Positions 8,364-17,533 of a DNA stretch of 53,511 bases are shown here, piece by piece. A model generated the notes under the pieces. It was not told the DNA's origin and did not search any database. It worked only from the letters and a program-made list of their open reading frames with translations. This stretch comes from an uncultured bacterium (lineage in GTDB: Bacteria > Verrucomicrobiota > Kiritimatiellia > RFP12 > CAIWXQ01). The translations under genes and the position numbers were made by a program. The stretch lies in the NCBI GenBank assembly GCA_903861045.1, contig CAIOST010000360.1:1-53511 (forward strand), written 5' to 3'. Position 1 is the first letter of the stretch, and the number at the start of each line of letters is the position of its first letter.

Positions 8364-9014
8364 ATGACCATTATCATGGATATTCGCGATAGCGTACGCG
8401 CGGAAGTTCTGGACTACCAGCAACTGATGGCGTGTCTACAGGACTACGCCAAGCCGCGCGACCGGATCAGCGCCTTTCTGGCCGATGGCAGTCTGGTGCG
8501 TGTACGCAAGGGGCTGTATGTGTTCGGTGAACGTTACCGACGCACGCTTGTCAGCCGTGAAGTCCTGGCCAACCTGATCTATGGGCCTTCCTACATCAGC
8601 CTCGATTATGCGTTAAGTATCCACGGTCTGATCCCGGAGCGCGTCACGGAGGTAACCTGCATGACCGCCGGCGAAAAGCGGCGCTTCACAACGCCCTTCG
8701 GCGTCTTCTCCTACCGCCCGCTCTCCTTGCATCGCTATGCGCCGGGAATCGTATGGGCTGGAGAGGGCGAAGCCCGATACCTGATGGCCTCACCCGAGAA
8801 GGCGCTGCTGGACAAGGTCTGGGCTGATCCGCGCTTCCGCCCGATGAAGCAGCAGAATTTCGATTCCTATCTGTTCGCGGATCTTCGGGTGGAGGAAGAT
8901 CGCCTGGCCGCACTGGATCACGGCCGGATCGAGGCCATCGCCCAGGCATACTCCTCGCGAAAAGTCACCATGCTGGCCCGTTTTCTGACAAAGCGCTACC
9001 GGAGAGAAACATGA
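8364..9014 (+). CDS. abiEi: AbiEi-like antitoxin/transcriptional regulator (type IV TA, copy 1)
   Basis: A 216-residue protein with an N-terminal winged helix (LMACLQDYAKPRDRISAFLADGSLVRVRKGLYV) and the AbiEi C-terminal domain (YGPSYISLDYALSIHGLIPERV, TTPFGVFSYRPL, YLMASPEKALLDKVW). Family members regulate the operon and neutralise the partner nucleotidyltransferase without direct binding. The stop overlaps the start of the toxin gene as ATGA, so both are co-translated. No Shine-Dalgarno precedes ATG 8364, and the candidate -10 box lies only nine bases away, suggesting a leaderless message. Confidence 0.88.
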   Translation: MTIIMDIRDSVRAEVLDYQQLMACLQDYAKPRDRISAFLADGSLVRVRKGLYVFGERYRRTLVSREVLANLIYGPSYISLDYALSIHGLIPERVTEVTCMTAGEKRRFTTPFGVFSYRPLSLHRYAPGIVWAGEGEARYLMASPEKALLDKVWADPRFRPMKQQNFDSYLFADLRVEEDRLAALDHGRIEAIAQAYSSRKVTMLARFLTKRYRRET

Positions 9015-9868
9015 ATGACGCTATTCAGCAGATGATGGCACGTTACGCTTGCAAGACCCAGGACGACCACATCAACGCGTTACGGGAGATTCTCCAGCAA
9101 ATCGCCTTGCTCGGCCTCTGGCGCGGCAAGTTCTTCGAACATGCCGCATTCTATGGCGGCACGGCGCTGCGCGTGCTGTATGGCCTGGACCGGTATTCCG
9201 AAGATCTCGACTTCTCCCTCCTCAAGCCGTCCAAGACATTCTCGCTGGACACCTATGGCCAGACGCTGCGCCGTGAGATCGCGAGCTTCGGCTTCGAGGT
9301 ATCGTTTGAAGTCCGGCAGAAGACGGCTGATTCGGCCATCGAATCCGCCTTTCTCAAGGCCAATACCGCCGAACAGTTGATTGTCATTCACGCCACCCAC
9401 ACCGCGTTACACCGCCATCAGACATTGAAGATCAAGCTGGAGATCGATACCGATCCTCCGGCCGGGTTCGAGACGGAGAGCCGGACCGTGCTCCTGCCGA
9501 CACCGTTTGCCGTACGCGTGTACCGTCGTCCGGATCTCTTTGCCGGGAAGATGCACGCGATCCTCTGCCGGAAATGGCAGAGCCGGGTCAAGGGGCGCGA
9601 CTGGTACGACCTGGTCTGGTATATCAGCCGTCATCCGCAACTGCATCTGAGCCACTTGGAAGCGCGTATGCGCGCTTCGGGCGACTGGACCGGCGACGCG
9701 AGCCTCACCCGCGCCGACCTGTTCAACCGCCTACGCGCCACCATTGCCGAACTGGACGTCGCCCAGGTGCGGCAGGAAACGAGCCGCTTCATCCGCGATC
9801 CGTCCACGCTGGCAATCTGGTCACCGGAATTCTTCAAGGAGATCACGGAGAAGATCGAGACGGTGTGA
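9011..9868 (+). CDS. abiEii: AbiEii-like nucleotidyltransferase toxin (copy 1)
   Basis: A DNA polymerase beta-type nucleotidyltransferase of 285 residues. The family motifs are clear: AAFYGGTALRVLYGL (glycine-rich GGT site), RYSEDLDFSL (the metal-binding D-x-D), KIKLEIDTDPPAG, FAGKMHAIL and VKGRDWYDLVWYI. Characterised relatives block growth by adding nucleotides to tRNA or otherwise targeting nucleotides, and the AbiE pair can abort phage infection. Its gene overlaps the antitoxin by four bases and is followed after 55 bases by the convergent 3' end of sigma paralogue 3. Confidence 0.88.
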   Translation: MNDAIQQMMARYACKTQDDHINALREILQQIALLGLWRGKFFEHAAFYGGTALRVLYGLDRYSEDLDFSLLKPSKTFSLDTYGQTLRREIASFGFEVSFEVRQKTADSAIESAFLKANTAEQLIVIHATHTALHRHQTLKIKLEIDTDPPAGFETESRTVLLPTPFAVRVYRRPDLFAGKMHAILCRKWQSRVKGRDWYDLVWYISRHPQLHLSHLEARMRASGDWTGDASLTRADLFNRLRATIAELDVAQVRQETSRFIRDPSTLAIWSPEFFKEITEKIETV

Positions 9869-11241: not shown

Positions 11242-11883
11242 ATGAACTTAGGTGATATTGTCCGGATTGTCGGGGAACTGCCGTGCTTCGATTTGGCGCT
11301 GCTGACGCAGGCGTTCGATGACCGTCGGGAGGGAATCCGGGTGCAACTTTCGCGCTGGATGAAGCAGGGCAAGGTTATCGGACTCCGGCGTGGCATGTAT
11401 GCGCTCGCCGAGCCCTACCGACGCGCGACGCCGAATCCAGCCGTGCTCGCCGGCCGCCTGTACCGGCCGTCCTACCTCAGCGGGTTGTGGGCGCTGGGAC
11501 ACTACGACCTGATTCCGGAACGAGTCGTCAGGTTCACCAGTGTGACGCCACGCGTCCCAAGCCGCTTCGAGAATCCCTTCGGCGTCTTCGACTACCGTAA
11601 CATCAAGCAGGCCTGTTTCTTCGGATTTGCGTCAACCGGCGTTGCGGGTCAGGATTTCTTTGTCGCCGAACCCGAGAAAGCGTTGCTGGATCATTGGCAC
11701 CTGACCGAGGGGGAGTGGACCACGGAACGTATCGATGAGATGCGCTATCAGCATGTCGCTCGGGTTGACGCGGAACGTCTCGGGCGTTACGCGCAACGGT
11801 TTCAAAGTCCGCGCCTGGACCGGGCCGTCCAACGGTGGCTTCGAATGGCGGGTGATGCAGAGGAAGGAACGGTGGCGCTATGA
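11242..11883 (+). CDS. abiEi: AbiEi-like antitoxin/transcriptional regulator (copy 2)
   Basis: A 213-residue AbiEi homologue with the winged-helix start (ALLTQAFDDRREGIRVQLSRWMKQGKVIGLRRGMY) and the C-terminal signature (YRPSYLSGLWALGHYDLIPERV, ENPFGVFDYRNI, FVAEPEKALLDHW). It is clearly diverged from copy 1 in sequence but has the same order, length and ATGA overlap with its toxin, so the two operons were acquired separately or duplicated long ago. It starts 163 bases from the divergent sigma paralogue 3. Confidence 0.88.
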   Translation: MNLGDIVRIVGELPCFDLALLTQAFDDRREGIRVQLSRWMKQGKVIGLRRGMYALAEPYRRATPNPAVLAGRLYRPSYLSGLWALGHYDLIPERVVRFTSVTPRVPSRFENPFGVFDYRNIKQACFFGFASTGVAGQDFFVAEPEKALLDHWHLTEGEWTTERIDEMRYQHVARVDAERLGRYAQRFQSPRLDRAVQRWLRMAGDAEEGTVAL

Positions 11884-12674
11884 AAGAGGAAGCCTTGGCC
11901 TTGGTTCGGGGTGTACCAGATCCGGTGCAAGCCCTGAACCGACTCCGGGAATACCTTCAGGCTTTTGTGTTACGGTCGTTCCACGAAAGCGAGGCGTTCC
12001 GGCCGCTGGCCTTTGTCGGCGGAACAGCGCTGCGTTTCCTGCATGGTTTGCCGCGATTCTCCGAGGACCTCGATTTCTCGCTTGTTTCCATCGATGGCTA
12101 TGCGGGAAAGGAATGGATGGCCAAGGTGAAACGTGACTTGACGCTCGCCGGGTTCGCCCCGGAGGTGACCTGGAATGACCGCAAAGTTGTGCATACAGGC
12201 TGGGTTCGCGTGGCCGACATCCTGCATGAGGCGGGTCTGTCGGCCATGCCGACGGAGAAACTGGCCATCAAGGTAGAAATCGACACCCGGCCGCCGGCGG
12301 GTGGGAGCTGCGAACGACGGATCGTCACGCGCTACGTGACCTTCCTGCTCCAGCACTACGACCTGCCATCGCTCCTGGCCGGGAAACTGCACGCCGTCAT
12401 CACCCGCAAGTATGCCAAGGGGCGGGACTGGTACGATCTCATGTGGTATCTCTCGCAACGCCCGCCGGTGGCCCCGAACCTGCCATTGTTACAGGCGCTC
12501 GACCAGACGCAAGGAGCCGGACGTCGCGATGCTCTGGCCTGGAAGCAACTGGTGCAAGCACGGTTGACGGCCTTGGACATGCGGGCGGTCAGCGAGGATG
12601 TCGGTCCCTTCCTCGAACGGCCTAAGGACGCAGCGTTGCTGATGCGTGACAACCTGGCGGCGCTGCTGGGGTGA
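11880..12674 (+). CDS. abiEii: AbiEii-like nucleotidyltransferase toxin (copy 2)
   Basis: A 264-residue nucleotidyltransferase with FVGGTALRFLHGLPRFSEDL (glycine site and first acidic residue), the DLDFSL pair, KLAIKVEIDTRPPAGG, LLAGKLHAVITRKYAKGRDW and YDLMWYLSQ. These are the same motifs as copy 1 in a different sequence background. Translation is coupled to the antitoxin. Downstream lies a relic of a sigma gene on the other strand. Confidence 0.88.
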   Translation: MKEEALALVRGVPDPVQALNRLREYLQAFVLRSFHESEAFRPLAFVGGTALRFLHGLPRFSEDLDFSLVSIDGYAGKEWMAKVKRDLTLAGFAPEVTWNDRKVVHTGWVRVADILHEAGLSAMPTEKLAIKVEIDTRPPAGGSCERRIVTRYVTFLLQHYDLPSLLAGKLHAVITRKYAKGRDWYDLMWYLSQRPPVAPNLPLLQALDQTQGAGRRDALAWKQLVQARLTALDMRAVSEDVGPFLERPKDAALLMRDNLAALLG

Positions 12675-13203: not shown

Positions 13204-13317
13204 ACGGCGCCGGGCTCGGGCACGTCTTTTGCGCGAAGAAAAATGCCAGCCAGAACTACTACACCATTGCGAATTCTATGATAGGGCGCGCAAACGCCGT
13301 CCCGAGCCCGGCGCCGT
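13204..13317. repeat. Long imperfect inverted repeat
   Basis: Arms 13204-13235 and 13287-13317 pair over ACGGCGCCGGGCTCGGG (17 exact) and TTTGCGCG (8 exact) with a small mismatch between, around a 51-base loop. It could fold as a large RNA hairpin or be the ends of a small non-autonomous element. No ORF is inside. Confidence 0.65.
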
Positions 13318-13404: not shown

Positions 13405-13450
13405 CGGTTCCGAATAGGGGCGGCCGGTCGGCCGCCCCTATTCGGAACCG
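13405..13450. repeat. 46-bp hairpin with 22-bp perfect arms
   Basis: Left arm CGGTTCCGAATAGGGGCGGC (first 20 bases) plus CG is followed by GT and the exact complement. It sits just upstream of the Fic promoter and is GC-rich in its inner half; it has no T-run on either side. Confidence 0.8.
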
Positions 13451-13455
13451 CCGTC

Positions 13456-13500
13456 GTAACGACTTATCGCTTGAAAAGTGTTAATTTAAGTCGTTACAAT
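13456..13500 (+). promoter_or_regulatory. fic promoter flanked by GTAACGACTT inverted repeat
   Basis: TTGAAA (13471-13476) and TACAAT (13495-13500) are 18 bases apart. GTAACGACTT (13456-13465) and its exact complement AAGTCGTTAC (13488-13497) bracket the -35 box and overlap the -10 box, as expected for a repressor site. An AAAGGTGG Shine-Dalgarno precedes ATG 13531. Confidence 0.55.
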
Positions 13501-13530
13501 AAGGTCTGTTGCGCTAAAAAGGTGGTTACA

Positions 13531-14550
13531 ATGCCTGGAAAACCATTTCAATCCATGCTGCTTCCTTATGAGGAAGAGATCTTTGCTTTGCTGGATGCTG
13601 GCAGGAGTTTCCGTGAAACGGCTGCTGTATTGAACAAGGCGCATGGCTTGTCGGTCACGCACAACGCGGTTTTTTCATTTACCAAAAGCCGGCGCAGGCA
13701 GCGCGGATTTCGTCTCTTTTACGAGGGGCTCTCGCCAGATATCCGTGATCATCTCCTGAAGCAGGTTGCGGCGGTCTGGACGCATGACTCCACGGCCATT
13801 GAAGGTAATACCCTGACGCTGGGCGAAACCCTCAAGGTGCTGGAACTAGGCTTAACGATCAGCGGCAAACCCCTGCGGGAGCATCAGGAAGTTTACGGAC
13901 ATGCCCGGGCCATTGACCTCATCTACCGGATGCTTCGTCGTCCGGAGGTTACGCCGGAGGATCTGTTCGACCTGCATCGCGCGGTCATGCAAGCTTCGGC
14001 GGTGGATGCCCTCAATCCCGTCGGAAACTGGAAGCAGGCCAACAACGGCACCACAGGCGTGGCCAATGGCAAGATCGTCTACATGGAGTACGCCGACCCG
14101 CTGGACGTGCCGCACCTGATGAAGCGCTGGTTGCATGAATTCAACCGCGCACTGCAAGCGATGCGCCGGCCCGAGGACGCCATCCACGCGTATGTCATGG
14201 CGCACATGGGATTCGTGCGCATTCACCCCTTCTTCGACGGCAATGGCCGCGTAGCCCGGCTGGTAGCCAACATTCCCGTCCTGAAGGGTGGCCATCCCCC
14301 GATTGTTGTCCCCAAGGAACGACGCAGCGACTACATTGATTTGCTTTGGGAGTATCAGAACGCGGTTGGCAAGATCAACCGCGATTCGCCATTCGTACCA
14401 CCACATCCGGCTGTCGAACGTCTCATAGTTCTTCTGCGGACCGAATGGCAACACACCCTCGCGCCGATTACGGCCGCCCGCCAACGCGAAGCGGAACGAC
14501 ACGCCGACTCGGCGAAGATTTCTCCGCAGATTTCACAGATTAACGCATAG
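13531..14550 (+). CDS. fic: Fic family protein with N-terminal helix-turn-helix
   Basis: A 339-residue protein. The first 60 residues resemble a DNA-binding helix-turn-helix (EIFALLDAGRSFRETAAVLN, then SVTHNAVFSFTKSRRR). The central Fic core has the catalytic motif HPFFDGNGRVARLV and, upstream, the auto-inhibitory motif STAIEGNT typical of Fic proteins that carry their own inhibitory helix. Fic enzymes transfer AMP or other nucleotide groups to target proteins. ATG 13531 is chosen over the track start because it follows a promoter and Shine-Dalgarno and begins the recognisable domain. No separate antitoxin gene is adjacent, consistent with self-inhibition; the helix-turn-helix may bind the operator just upstream. 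Confidence 0.87.
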   Translation: MPGKPFQSMLLPYEEEIFALLDAGRSFRETAAVLNKAHGLSVTHNAVFSFTKSRRRQRGFRLFYEGLSPDIRDHLLKQVAAVWTHDSTAIEGNTLTLGETLKVLELGLTISGKPLREHQEVYGHARAIDLIYRMLRRPEVTPEDLFDLHRAVMQASAVDALNPVGNWKQANNGTTGVANGKIVYMEYADPLDVPHLMKRWLHEFNRALQAMRRPEDAIHAYVMAHMGFVRIHPFFDGNGRVARLVANIPVLKGGHPPIVVPKERRSDYIDLLWEYQNAVGKINRDSPFVPPHPAVERLIVLLRTEWQHTLAPITAARQREAERHADSAKISPQISQINA

Positions 14551-15045: not shown

Positions 15046-15306
15046 ATGGCAACGGCAAAACTCACGCTCAGCGCGAATGCGGATCTGATCGCGGACGCCA
15101 AGACCGTCGCGGCCCAAAGGAAGACCAGCGTTTCGGCCATGGTTTCCGGTTTCCTGCGGTCGGTATCCCGGCCTGAAGCTGATCCGTCATTGTCGCTGGG
15201 ACCGATCACGCGCCGGGCTTCCGGCATCGTCAAACTGCCGGCCGGACAATCCGACAAGGAGCTGCTCGGCGATGCACTGGCGACCAAGTACGGAGCCGCA
15301 CGGTGA
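15046..15306 (+). CDS. DUF6364/VapB-like antitoxin
   Basis: An 86-residue protein that starts with a ribbon-helix-helix-like segment (AKLTLSANADLIADAKTVAA, KTSVSAMVSGFLRSV), as in small DNA-binding antitoxins, and ends with a probably unstructured, toxin-binding tail. It is the first gene of a two-gene operon and overlaps the PIN toxin start by four bases (GTGA). It is expected to bind the ATACGTAT boxes upstream and to neutralise the neighbouring nuclease. Confidence 0.8.
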   Translation: MATAKLTLSANADLIADAKTVAAQRKTSVSAMVSGFLRSVSRPEADPSLSLGPITRRASGIVKLPAGQSDKELLGDALATKYGAAR

Positions 15307-15734
15307 GGATTCTCGTCGACACCAACGTTCTGCTGGACGTGCTGGCGCGCCGCGAGCCATTCTACGCGGCCGCCGCCGCGATCTGGTCGTTGGCGGAGCG
15401 GGGCGAAGTGCGCGCCGTAGTGTCGGCCATCAGCTTCAATAACGTCTATTACATCGTGCGTCGGGCGGAAGGCCGGACGCAGGCGCTGAAGGCCATGCGC
15501 CTGATCCGCGACGTCTTCGACGCCGTGCCGCCGGACAGCCAGATCATCAACCAGGCCATTGACGCCAACATGGACGACTTTGAGGATGCCGTTCAGTTCC
15601 ATTCGGCGATCCGCGCCAAGGCCACCTACCTCGTAACACGCAACCCCGGCGACTTCCCGAAGTCCGCATTGCCGATTCTCACACCGGACGAATTCCTCGC
15701 GGCATGGCGGAACAAGACAAGCGAACAGCCGTAG
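15303..15734 (+). CDS. PIN-domain ribonuclease toxin (VapC-like)
   Basis: A 143-residue PIN protein beginning ILVDTNVLLDVLARREPF, with further acidic residues in NMDDFEDAVQFHSA and the closing motif YLVTRNPGDFPKSALPILTP. The N-terminal DTN and the DDFED and GDF acidic groups fit the metal-dependent RNase active site. GTG is the start, overlapping the antitoxin stop. Such toxins cut tRNA or rRNA; the target here cannot be read from the sequence. Confidence 0.85.
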   Translation: MRILVDTNVLLDVLARREPFYAAAAAIWSLAERGEVRAVVSAISFNNVYYIVRRAEGRTQALKAMRLIRDVFDAVPPDSQIINQAIDANMDDFEDAVQFHSAIRAKATYLVTRNPGDFPKSALPILTPDEFLAAWRNKTSEQP

Positions 15735-15972: not shown

Positions 15973-16272
15973 ATGACAGCACAAATCGGCCATATTATGT
16001 CCATGCTGGAAGCGCCAGAAATTGGCGCAGTGCTTCGTTACCATAGGCGACGCAGCGGCCTAAGCCAAAGCGAACTCGCCGCTTTGGCCGGTATCGGCAA
16101 AACCTCTGTCTTCGACATAGAAAGCGGCAAGCAAACCGTGCGTCTGGCCACGTTAATGGCCGCTCTGCGCGCCCTCAATATCGCCTTGACGCTTACAAGC
16201 CCGCTGATGGCGGAGTGCTCGCAAGCACTGAAAACCAGCCAGAACGCCACCCAAGGGGAAGACCCATCATGA
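15973..16272 (+). CDS. hipB: HipB-like helix-turn-helix regulator of HipBST system 2
   Basis: A 99-residue Cro/C1-type protein: GAVLRYHRRRSGLSQSELAA and GIGKTSVFDIESGKQTVRLA form the helix-turn-helix with the DIESGK recognition segment. The ALNIALTLTSPL tail resembles the dimerisation strand of HipB. It is the first gene of a plus-strand operon with ATGA overlaps at both junctions. It is only distantly similar to the HipB of system 1, and the putative operators also differ. Confidence 0.85.
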   Translation: MTAQIGHIMSMLEAPEIGAVLRYHRRRSGLSQSELAALAGIGKTSVFDIESGKQTVRLATLMAALRALNIALTLTSPLMAECSQALKTSQNATQGEDPS

Positions 16273-16583
16273 GGCGCGCACGGATTGACGTCATGGGGCA
16301 GCGGGCCGGTGTGCTGGAGGAGCCGGCGCCGGGCCGGTATATGTTTCGTTACGATGACGCTTATTCGGGACCGCCGGTCTCGTTGTCGCTGCCCGTTTCA
16401 AAACGCGAGTTCGTCTTTGAAGTGTTTCCACCTTTCTTCGAGGGGTTGCTGCCGGAAGGCGCGATGCTGGAAGGCTTGTTACGCCAGTGTAAGATAGACC
16501 GTACGGATCTTTTCGGACAGCTTCTGGCAGTTGGCGGCGATACAGTTGGCGCGGTCACGGTCACCGGGGAGGCCCCGGCATGA
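16269..16583 (+). CDS. hipS: HipS-like small protein of HipBST system 2
   Basis: A 104-residue HipA subdomain-1 homologue with VMGQRAGVLEE, FRYDDAYSGPPVSLSLPVSK, FEVFPPFFEGLLPEGAMLEG and TDLFGQLLAVGGDTVGAVTV. ATG 16269 is chosen because it overlaps the hipB stop by four bases; the track ORF extends upstream in error. It has exactly the same length as HipS of system 1. By analogy with the known HipBST system it should be the protein that inhibits HipT. Confidence 0.85.
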   Translation: MRRARIDVMGQRAGVLEEPAPGRYMFRYDDAYSGPPVSLSLPVSKREFVFEVFPPFFEGLLPEGAMLEGLLRQCKIDRTDLFGQLLAVGGDTVGAVTVTGEAPA

Positions 16584-17533
16584 ACCGGTGCCCCATCACA
16601 TACGAGCCGTGCCAGGATGAAGCGCGCTACTCGCCGTCCGGGTTGCTCCTGCTATCGCCGAATCTCAAACAGTTGTTGGACTTCCCCTACGATGCCCAGC
16701 AACAGCGCCGCGAAGCGGTCATCCAAGCCGCGAAGATGTCCATCCAGGGCGTCCAGCCAAAACTGAGTGTCCGTCTCGACGCGAAAGCGGGGCTGTTCGA
16801 AATCGTGGATCGCGGCGGACGCTATATCATCAAACCCCAACATGACGCGTATCCCAATCTTCCCGAGAACGAAGGTCTCACGATGCATCTGGCCGGCCTG
16901 TGCGGGATTGACACGCCGCTCAGCGGCATGGTGCGCTGTGCCGACGGCTCATGGTCCTATTTCATCCGCCGCTTCGACCGTGTCGGTCACAACGGCAAGC
17001 TGCCGGTCGAGGACTTCGCCCAGCTCGCTGGGTTGAGCCGCGAGACGAAGTACGACTTCAGCATGGAGCGGCTCGTGAAGATCCTGGACGTCTACTGCAC
17101 GTTCCCCGCCATCGAGAAAGTGAGGCTTCTCAAGCGGTGCCTGTTCAGTTTCATCGTCGGCAACGAAGACATGCACGTCAAGAACTTCTCCCTGATCACC
17201 CGTGACGGAAAAATCATGCTGGCTCCGGCGTACGACTATCTCAGCACGACCGTTGCCTTCCTGAGCCTCGGCCAACGCCTCGATCAGATCGAGGAGATCG
17301 CCCTACCGCTCCAAGGCAAGAAACGCGGCCTCACGCGCAACACCTGGGTCGAATATTTTGCCAAAGAGCGGCTCGCCCTTCCCGACAAGATCGTCGGAAA
17401 GGTTCAAGCCGACATCCGGTCCGCCGTCCCCTTGTGGAAGACCTGTCTGGCGGAATCCTTGCTTCCGCCAGAACACCAGATGCTCTATGCCCGTCTCCTC
17501 GACCAGCGCCTCGCAGTGCTGGGCATCGCCTGA
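16580..17533 (+). CDS. hipT: HipT-like kinase toxin (HipBST system 2)
   Basis: A 317-residue HipA-type kinase without subdomain 1. Motifs: N-terminal CPITYEPC, the Gly-rich loop KMSIQGVQPKLSV, catalytic VGNEDMHVKNFSLI and metal-binding LAPAYDYL. The loop reads SIQ where system 1 has SIS, so one of the two potential autophosphorylation serines is replaced by glutamine; regulation by phosphorylation may therefore differ. The four-base overlap with hipS couples translation. Confidence 0.88.
   Translation: MNRCPITYEPCQDEARYSPSGLLLLSPNLKQLLDFPYDAQQQRREAVIQAAKMSIQGVQPKLSVRLDAKAGLFEIVDRGGRYIIKPQHDAYPNLPENEGLTMHLAGLCGIDTPLSGMVRCADGSWSYFIRRFDRVGHNGKLPVEDFAQLAGLSRETKYDFSMERLVKILDVYCTFPAIEKVRLLKRCLFSFIVGNEDMHVKNFSLITRDGKIMLAPAYDYLSTTVAFLSLGQRLDQIEEIALPLQGKKRGLTRNTWVEYFAKERLALPDKIVGKVQADIRSAVPLWKTCLAESLLPPEHQMLYARLLDQRLAVLGIA

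Follow-up and report, generated by a model that had tools for sequence, protein, structure and literature searches.

We think it probable that the gene at 13531-14550 of the window, the whole 53,511-nucleotide stretch of DNA analysed here, encodes a solo (monocistronic) autoinhibited class II AMPylase that represses its own gene via an N-terminal helix-turn-helix (HTH) domain. This reading is based on comparison of the domain layout, the catalytic and inhibitory residues, the operator, the restriction of that operator to the HTH-Fic gene, and the solo status of the gene. The gene and the parts of its product are as follows.

13531..14550, + strand: HTH-Fic gene (P0001), 339 aa, from the ORF and its translation, PF02661 and whole-length relatives
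13531..13704, + strand: N-terminal HTH domain, residues 1-58, from weak HTH_38 matches and three helices in the model
13789..13812, + strand: inhibitory helix motif S87-T88-A-I-E91-G92-N93-T94, from the pattern [ST]xxxE[GN]
14224..14259, + strand: Fic catalytic motif HPFFDGNGRVAR, residues 232-243

The start codon is the ATG at 13531, with a purine-rich AGG(TGG) ~9 nt 5' of it, and the stop codon ends at 14550. Relatives are 56-74% identical over the full length of the protein. A Pfam profile search placed the Fic domain at residues 140-247 (PF02661, 62.3 bits against a cut-off of 24). The first-pass annotation had described a complete Fic site, and the site is indeed intact: HPFFDGNGR fits the Fic/FIDO motif HPFx[DE]GN[GK]R, which together with the domain places the protein in this family. 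H232 to R240, A242 and R243 are invariant in an alignment of 9 homologs. From these motifs, the enzyme is predicted to transfer AMP to a target hydroxyl.

The nearest solved Fic cores are those of FICD and BT_2513 (PDB 4u04, 3cuc), in which the inhibitory helix is placed alike; TAIEGNTL of the window protein aligns on AIEGNTL of the FICD helix. S87TAIEG92 precedes the Fic motif within one chain, the arrangement of a class II Fic. The STAIEGNT helix proposed earlier as the enzyme's own inhibitor is therefore present as a motif, and S87, T88, I90, E91, G92, N93 and T94 are invariant across the 9 homologs. Its assignment as an inhibitor is supported by this invariance and by the absence of a conserved neighbouring antitoxin gene (see below). 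Autoinhibition of the enzyme is very likely on these grounds.

Evidence for the N-terminal HTH is weak, but consistent. HTH_38 matches residues 15-39 with 18.9 bits, below the 27-bit Pfam cut-off, and it was matched in 13 of 18 relatives. AlphaFold placed helices at residues 5-22, 27-38 and 44-58 in both the full-length and the domain models. The domain model has a mean pLDDT of 81 (~90 across residues 11-50); the full-length model is of middling quality (mean pLDDT 69, with the inhibitory helix below 50). The best fold neighbours of the domain are HTH proteins (phage small terminase, Mutator-type transposase and RcsB), and no E-value among them is significant. Together, the model and the sub-threshold matches agree with the earlier description of a DNA-binding-like N-terminus, and we take this region to be an HTH with a recognition helix beginning at H44-N45. 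The same HTH (MYGKPFQSKL...) also occurs in small stand-alone proteins encoded directly 5' of a ParA-like ATPase (L067 1495-1821, L070 1492-1833). A gene of this kind on a plasmid or integrative element may have been the source of the Fic HTH.

No neighbour is shared beyond close relatives in an all-against-all comparison of neighbouring ORFs of at least 45 aa at 28 loci, and there is no shared 25-aa ORF within 500-600 bp of the HTH-Fic gene. Since no neighbouring gene is conserved, we infer that there is no separate antitoxin. The separate adjacent antitoxin gene of class I systems such as VbhTA and Phd-Doc is thus lacking. VbhTA, FicTA and Phd-Doc have a similar logic of inhibition and autorepression but split the job over two genes, whereas here all of the parts occur in one protein.

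The genomic setting favours a role in defence or stress, as does a partial match at residues 75-274 to the PADLOC candidate-defence profile PDC-S04 (E 6.6e-30). Within ~5 kb of the Fic gene are two AbiEi/AbiEii pairs, a DUF6364 and PIN_3 pair, and a HipB/Couple_hipA/HipA_C set.

8364-9868, 11242-12674, 15046-15734 and 15973-17533: toxin-antitoxin-type pairs around the Fic gene

The three-gene set, encoding HipB and the HipA N-terminal and C-terminal parts, resembles HipBST. These neighbours and the PDC-S04 match weigh against an alternative in which the protein is a housekeeping AMPylase, regulated by homeostatic feedback and switching a chaperone or some other target in the manner of FICD, and has no role as a toxin or in defence. 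So do the patchy distribution of the gene (in 24 of 388 genomes and in 47 of 346) and the existence of truncated and decayed Fic copies. A housekeeping function would be in keeping with FICD and BT_2513 as the nearest solved relatives, and with the invariance of both the catalytic and the inhibitory residues. The match to these two proteins covers the Fic core only and leaves out the N-terminal HTH, and FICD carries TPR and membrane parts. On balance, we consider a purely housekeeping role possible, albeit unlikely.

One Fic fragment was found elsewhere in the same genome (C352:3039-3362; L016 1501-1824), with 70% identity to residues 151-257. It is in frame with a thioredoxin-like protein, adjoins an undecaprenyl-diphosphatase-like ORF, and is probably a decayed second copy. 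No close copies with the HTH were identified on plasmids, where the best matches begin at residue 56-59, or in phages, where identity is below 35% among the matches listed. A scan of viral contigs returned short local Fic matches alone. In the Streptococcus satellite phage Javan547 (L049, 1472-2732), a gene for a DNA-binding protein lies directly 5' of a Fic gene, near an integrase. The repressor-Fic pairing is here divided over two genes of a phage satellite.

The DNA upstream of the HTH-Fic gene contains the following elements.

13405..13450, no strand assigned: hairpin with perfect 22-nt arms, immediately 5' of the operator
13456..13466, + strand: left operator half-site GTAACGACTTA, with core GTAACGAC at 13456-13463, kept in relatives
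13471..13476, + strand: -35 element TTGAAA, from a consensus scan, at the same place between the arms in relatives
13487..13497, + strand: right operator half-site TAAGTCGTTAC, with core GTCGTTAC at 13490-13497, kept in relatives
13495..13500, + strand: -10 element TACAAT, from a consensus scan and relatives, sharing 3 bp with the right half-site
13522..13530, + strand: third half-site GTGGTTACA, an 8/9 match to the right arm

The two half-sites form a perfect inverted repeat with 11-nt arms and 20 nt between them or, expressed as cores, GTAACGAC-N26-GTCGTTAC. The promoter-like TTGAAA-N18-TACAAT spans 13471-13500, so that the left arm is directly 5' of the -35 element and the right arm overlaps the -10 element. 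The promoter had been described in the first pass as bracketed by an inverted repeat. This holds, with arms one nucleotide longer than given there and the left arm beginning exactly at the 13456 proposed. The third half-site is oriented like the right arm, lies 32 bp 3' of it and adjoins the ATG. The hairpin may insulate the HTH-Fic gene from readthrough; it was not found as the best repeat in the upstream DNA of relatives. Farther upstream, in an apparently non-coding stretch, is a perfect inverted repeat whose 17-nt arms are separated by 80 nt (13204-13220 / 13301-13317).

A two-box repeat of the type TGTNAC...GTNACA occurs in the same place in all HTH-bearing relatives for which upstream DNA was available. 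We scored 46 loci (the window and 45 non-identical HTH-Fic loci of Verrucomicrobiota, Kiritimatiellota included), which are not independent because many belong to one genus (g8). The spacing between boxes is 24-27 bp across these loci and 26 bp in the window. Operator scores of at least 11 were obtained for 82% of HTH-Fic promoters, compared with 1.1% of controls, which were random stretches out of the same loci. At the start codon, 31-33 bp 3' of the right arm and in direct orientation, a third box is present in 31 of the 46 (0.65% in shuffles); it is absent in the HTH-Fic group with 27-bp spacing.

We also searched for a strict form of the operator, TGTAACGAC-N23-27-GTCGTTACA, in 334 whole genomes of the class (~1 Gb, as estimated from listed sizes). 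It occurred in nine places, and a reversed control pattern in none. Eight of the nine are upstream of HTH-Fic genes that were already among the relatives. The ninth (L117, 935-1276; G471:C216:7800-10600) precedes a copy that ends after residue 89, which has kept the operator and HTH and lost the enzyme part. In the 4.7-Mb genome from which the window derives, the only other occurrence of a relaxed form of the operator pattern is a perfect GC-rich hairpin on contig C227. This hairpin (C227:38-86) ends in GTAACGAC and resembles the hairpin at 13405-13450 of the window. A chance origin of the repeat is excluded by its genome-wide rarity, its conservation in relatives and the restriction of its strict form to HTH-Fic genes. 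A wider regulon was considered and rejected for the window's own genome, given that the C227 hairpin is the sole other strict pair. With the strict form confined to HTH-Fic genes in the 334 genomes, and the C227 hairpin as the only other occurrence in the genome of the window, the evidence points to an operator that is local and self-directed and not to a regulon.

An HTH attached to a class II Fic could also serve the enzyme itself. In CbFic2 of Coxiella burnetii, a class II Fic whose HTH lies at the C-terminus, AMPylation is stimulated by DNA (PMC10628234). By analogy, the HTH of the window protein could bring the enzyme to DNA, where binding would switch AMPylation or de-AMPylation, and autoregulation would be secondary. 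CbFic2 resembles the window protein in combining a class II Fic with an HTH, and in CbFic2 DNA binding is tied to the state of the enzyme. Unlike the window protein, it has a DeoR-type winged HTH at the C-terminus, a DUF4172 N-terminus and a host histone target, and it is without a known specific operator. We doubt that such a switch is the primary function, as one specific site per genome, located over the promoter, argues for local regulation. The two ideas are compatible and not mutually exclusive.

The letters of the half-sites shift along with recognition-helix residues 44-45. Where residue 44 is Y (SYNAV or TYNAV), both half-sites carry GTCAC (9 of 9 loci); where it is H, they carry GTAAC or a near form in 35 of 36, with one hybrid (L025). 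SHTSV is paired with GTAAT (L029), and SRGAV with GTATC inside a 14-nt perfect repeat (L105). A tree built from the Fic core requires at least two events for the H44Y change and contains one well-supported independent pair. Because independent events are few, the co-variation of helix and half-site is suggestive and not proven.

Relatives with other N-termini provide natural controls. No inverted repeat of at least 8 nt lies upstream of six Fic homologs that lack an N-terminal DNA-binding domain (L036, L037, L042, L045, L046 and L116). Other DNA-binding N-termini, in small classes of one to three loci apiece, are accompanied by different repeats: TAGACATTT/AAATGTCTA upstream of a gene with an Xre HTH (L040; HTH_3, 49 bits), AAATGGCCGAA/TTCGGCCATTT with a winged-helix-like N-terminus identified by weak matches (L038), and 12-16-nt repeats of CATTCTTTT with an unassigned N-terminus that may be a ribbon-helix-helix (L039, L041 and L044). 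Across L036-L049, one Fic core occurs with varied N-termini or none, and each DNA-binding version has its own repeat. A different regulator, such as a global factor or another HTH protein, could in principle bind the repeat while the Fic N-terminus serves, for example, in target recognition, and the stand-alone HTH proteins beside ParA-like ATPases indicate that this HTH need not be an autorepressor module, but we regard this as very improbable given that the strict operator occurs at HTH-Fic genes only, that its presence tracks the HTH domain and that its letters track the recognition helix.

Autorepression by the N-terminal HTH is thus highly likely. The conservation of the operator, its genome-wide specificity and the co-variation give strong support to the repressor function proposed in the first-pass annotation. 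That annotation had combined toxin, antitoxin and repressor in one gene, an interpretation that is partly supported; CccR and SoFic offer an analogy that makes the toxin component plausible.

The class II Fic toxin CccR (YPK_0951) of Yersinia pseudotuberculosis acts as a repressor at its own promoter (PMC9755527). Its footprinted operator, AGATAATCAT-N26-ATGATAATCT, has boxes near -35 and -10, and its authors tied the 26-bp spacing to the CccR dimer (PMC9755527). As in CccR, where the inhibitory motif is SARIEG, the window protein has the inhibitory helix and the HTH in the same chain, and two inverted boxes 26 bp apart lie across its own promoter; autorepression has been demonstrated for CccR and is predicted here. 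The HTH is C-terminal in CccR and N-terminal in the window protein, so that, judged by domain order and by the match to the 3EQX-like SoFic group given below, the latter is not a CccR ortholog. The operators also differ, with AGATAATCAT boxes in CccR and a different operator in the window, where a third box adjoins the start codon. CccR is a T6SS effector, whereas no link to secretion was seen for the window Fic. Also unlike CccR, its core is closer to FICD/BT_2513 than to the SoFic/3EQX group, which it matches at residues 173-247 only (E 8e-4).

SoFic proteins, including EcSofic (PMC12249575; NF046030, PADLOC SoFic), are likewise class II Fics, and SoFic is dimeric, toxic and anti-phage. The window protein falls outside NF046030 (22.1 bits against a cut-off of 550), and the similarity is local only. 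EcSofic has a 47-aa antitoxin, AS1, encoded downstream (PMC12249575); the window type has no conserved downstream ORF of this kind. An autorepressing class II Fic is not new in principle, as CccR is a precedent; what is new is a differently built variant. We found no description of an autorepressing Fic family with an N-terminal HTH in the literature searched.

We infer binding, repression and bridging by a dimer as follows. A Fic dimer would put its two N-terminal HTHs on half-sites 24-27 bp apart. These flank the -35 element and cover the -10 element, and RNA polymerase would be blocked; in the window's lineage, the third box at the start codon may be occupied by another subunit. While the protein is scarce, the S-T-A-I-E-G helix would keep the enzyme inactive. 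The protein level, the ATP/AMPylation state or a stress signal could then bring Fic off the DNA or displace the helix. Release would derepress the gene and allow the enzyme to AMPylate a cell target, probably in stress or phage defence.

A more speculative and distinctly doubtful extension is that the operator acts as a safety catch. DNA-bound dimers would be autoinhibited, and release would both derepress the gene and arm the enzyme, giving a one-gene toxin-antitoxin-repressor. The Fic core would then be a chassis for swapped N-terminal DNA-binding domains (HTH, Xre, winged-helix and ribbon-like), each with its own operator.

Class II Fics are described as making up ~80% of the family, with function and control almost wholly unexplored (PMC9755527). 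The solo Fic genes occur phylum-wide, with operators readable from sequence and natural co-changes of helix and half-site, and make autorepression in class II directly testable. The 24-27 bp spacing is shared by two proteins that carry the HTH at opposite ends, which suggests repeated origins of dimer-spaced autorepression. The findings also suggest that some single-gene toxins may do without a separate antitoxin.
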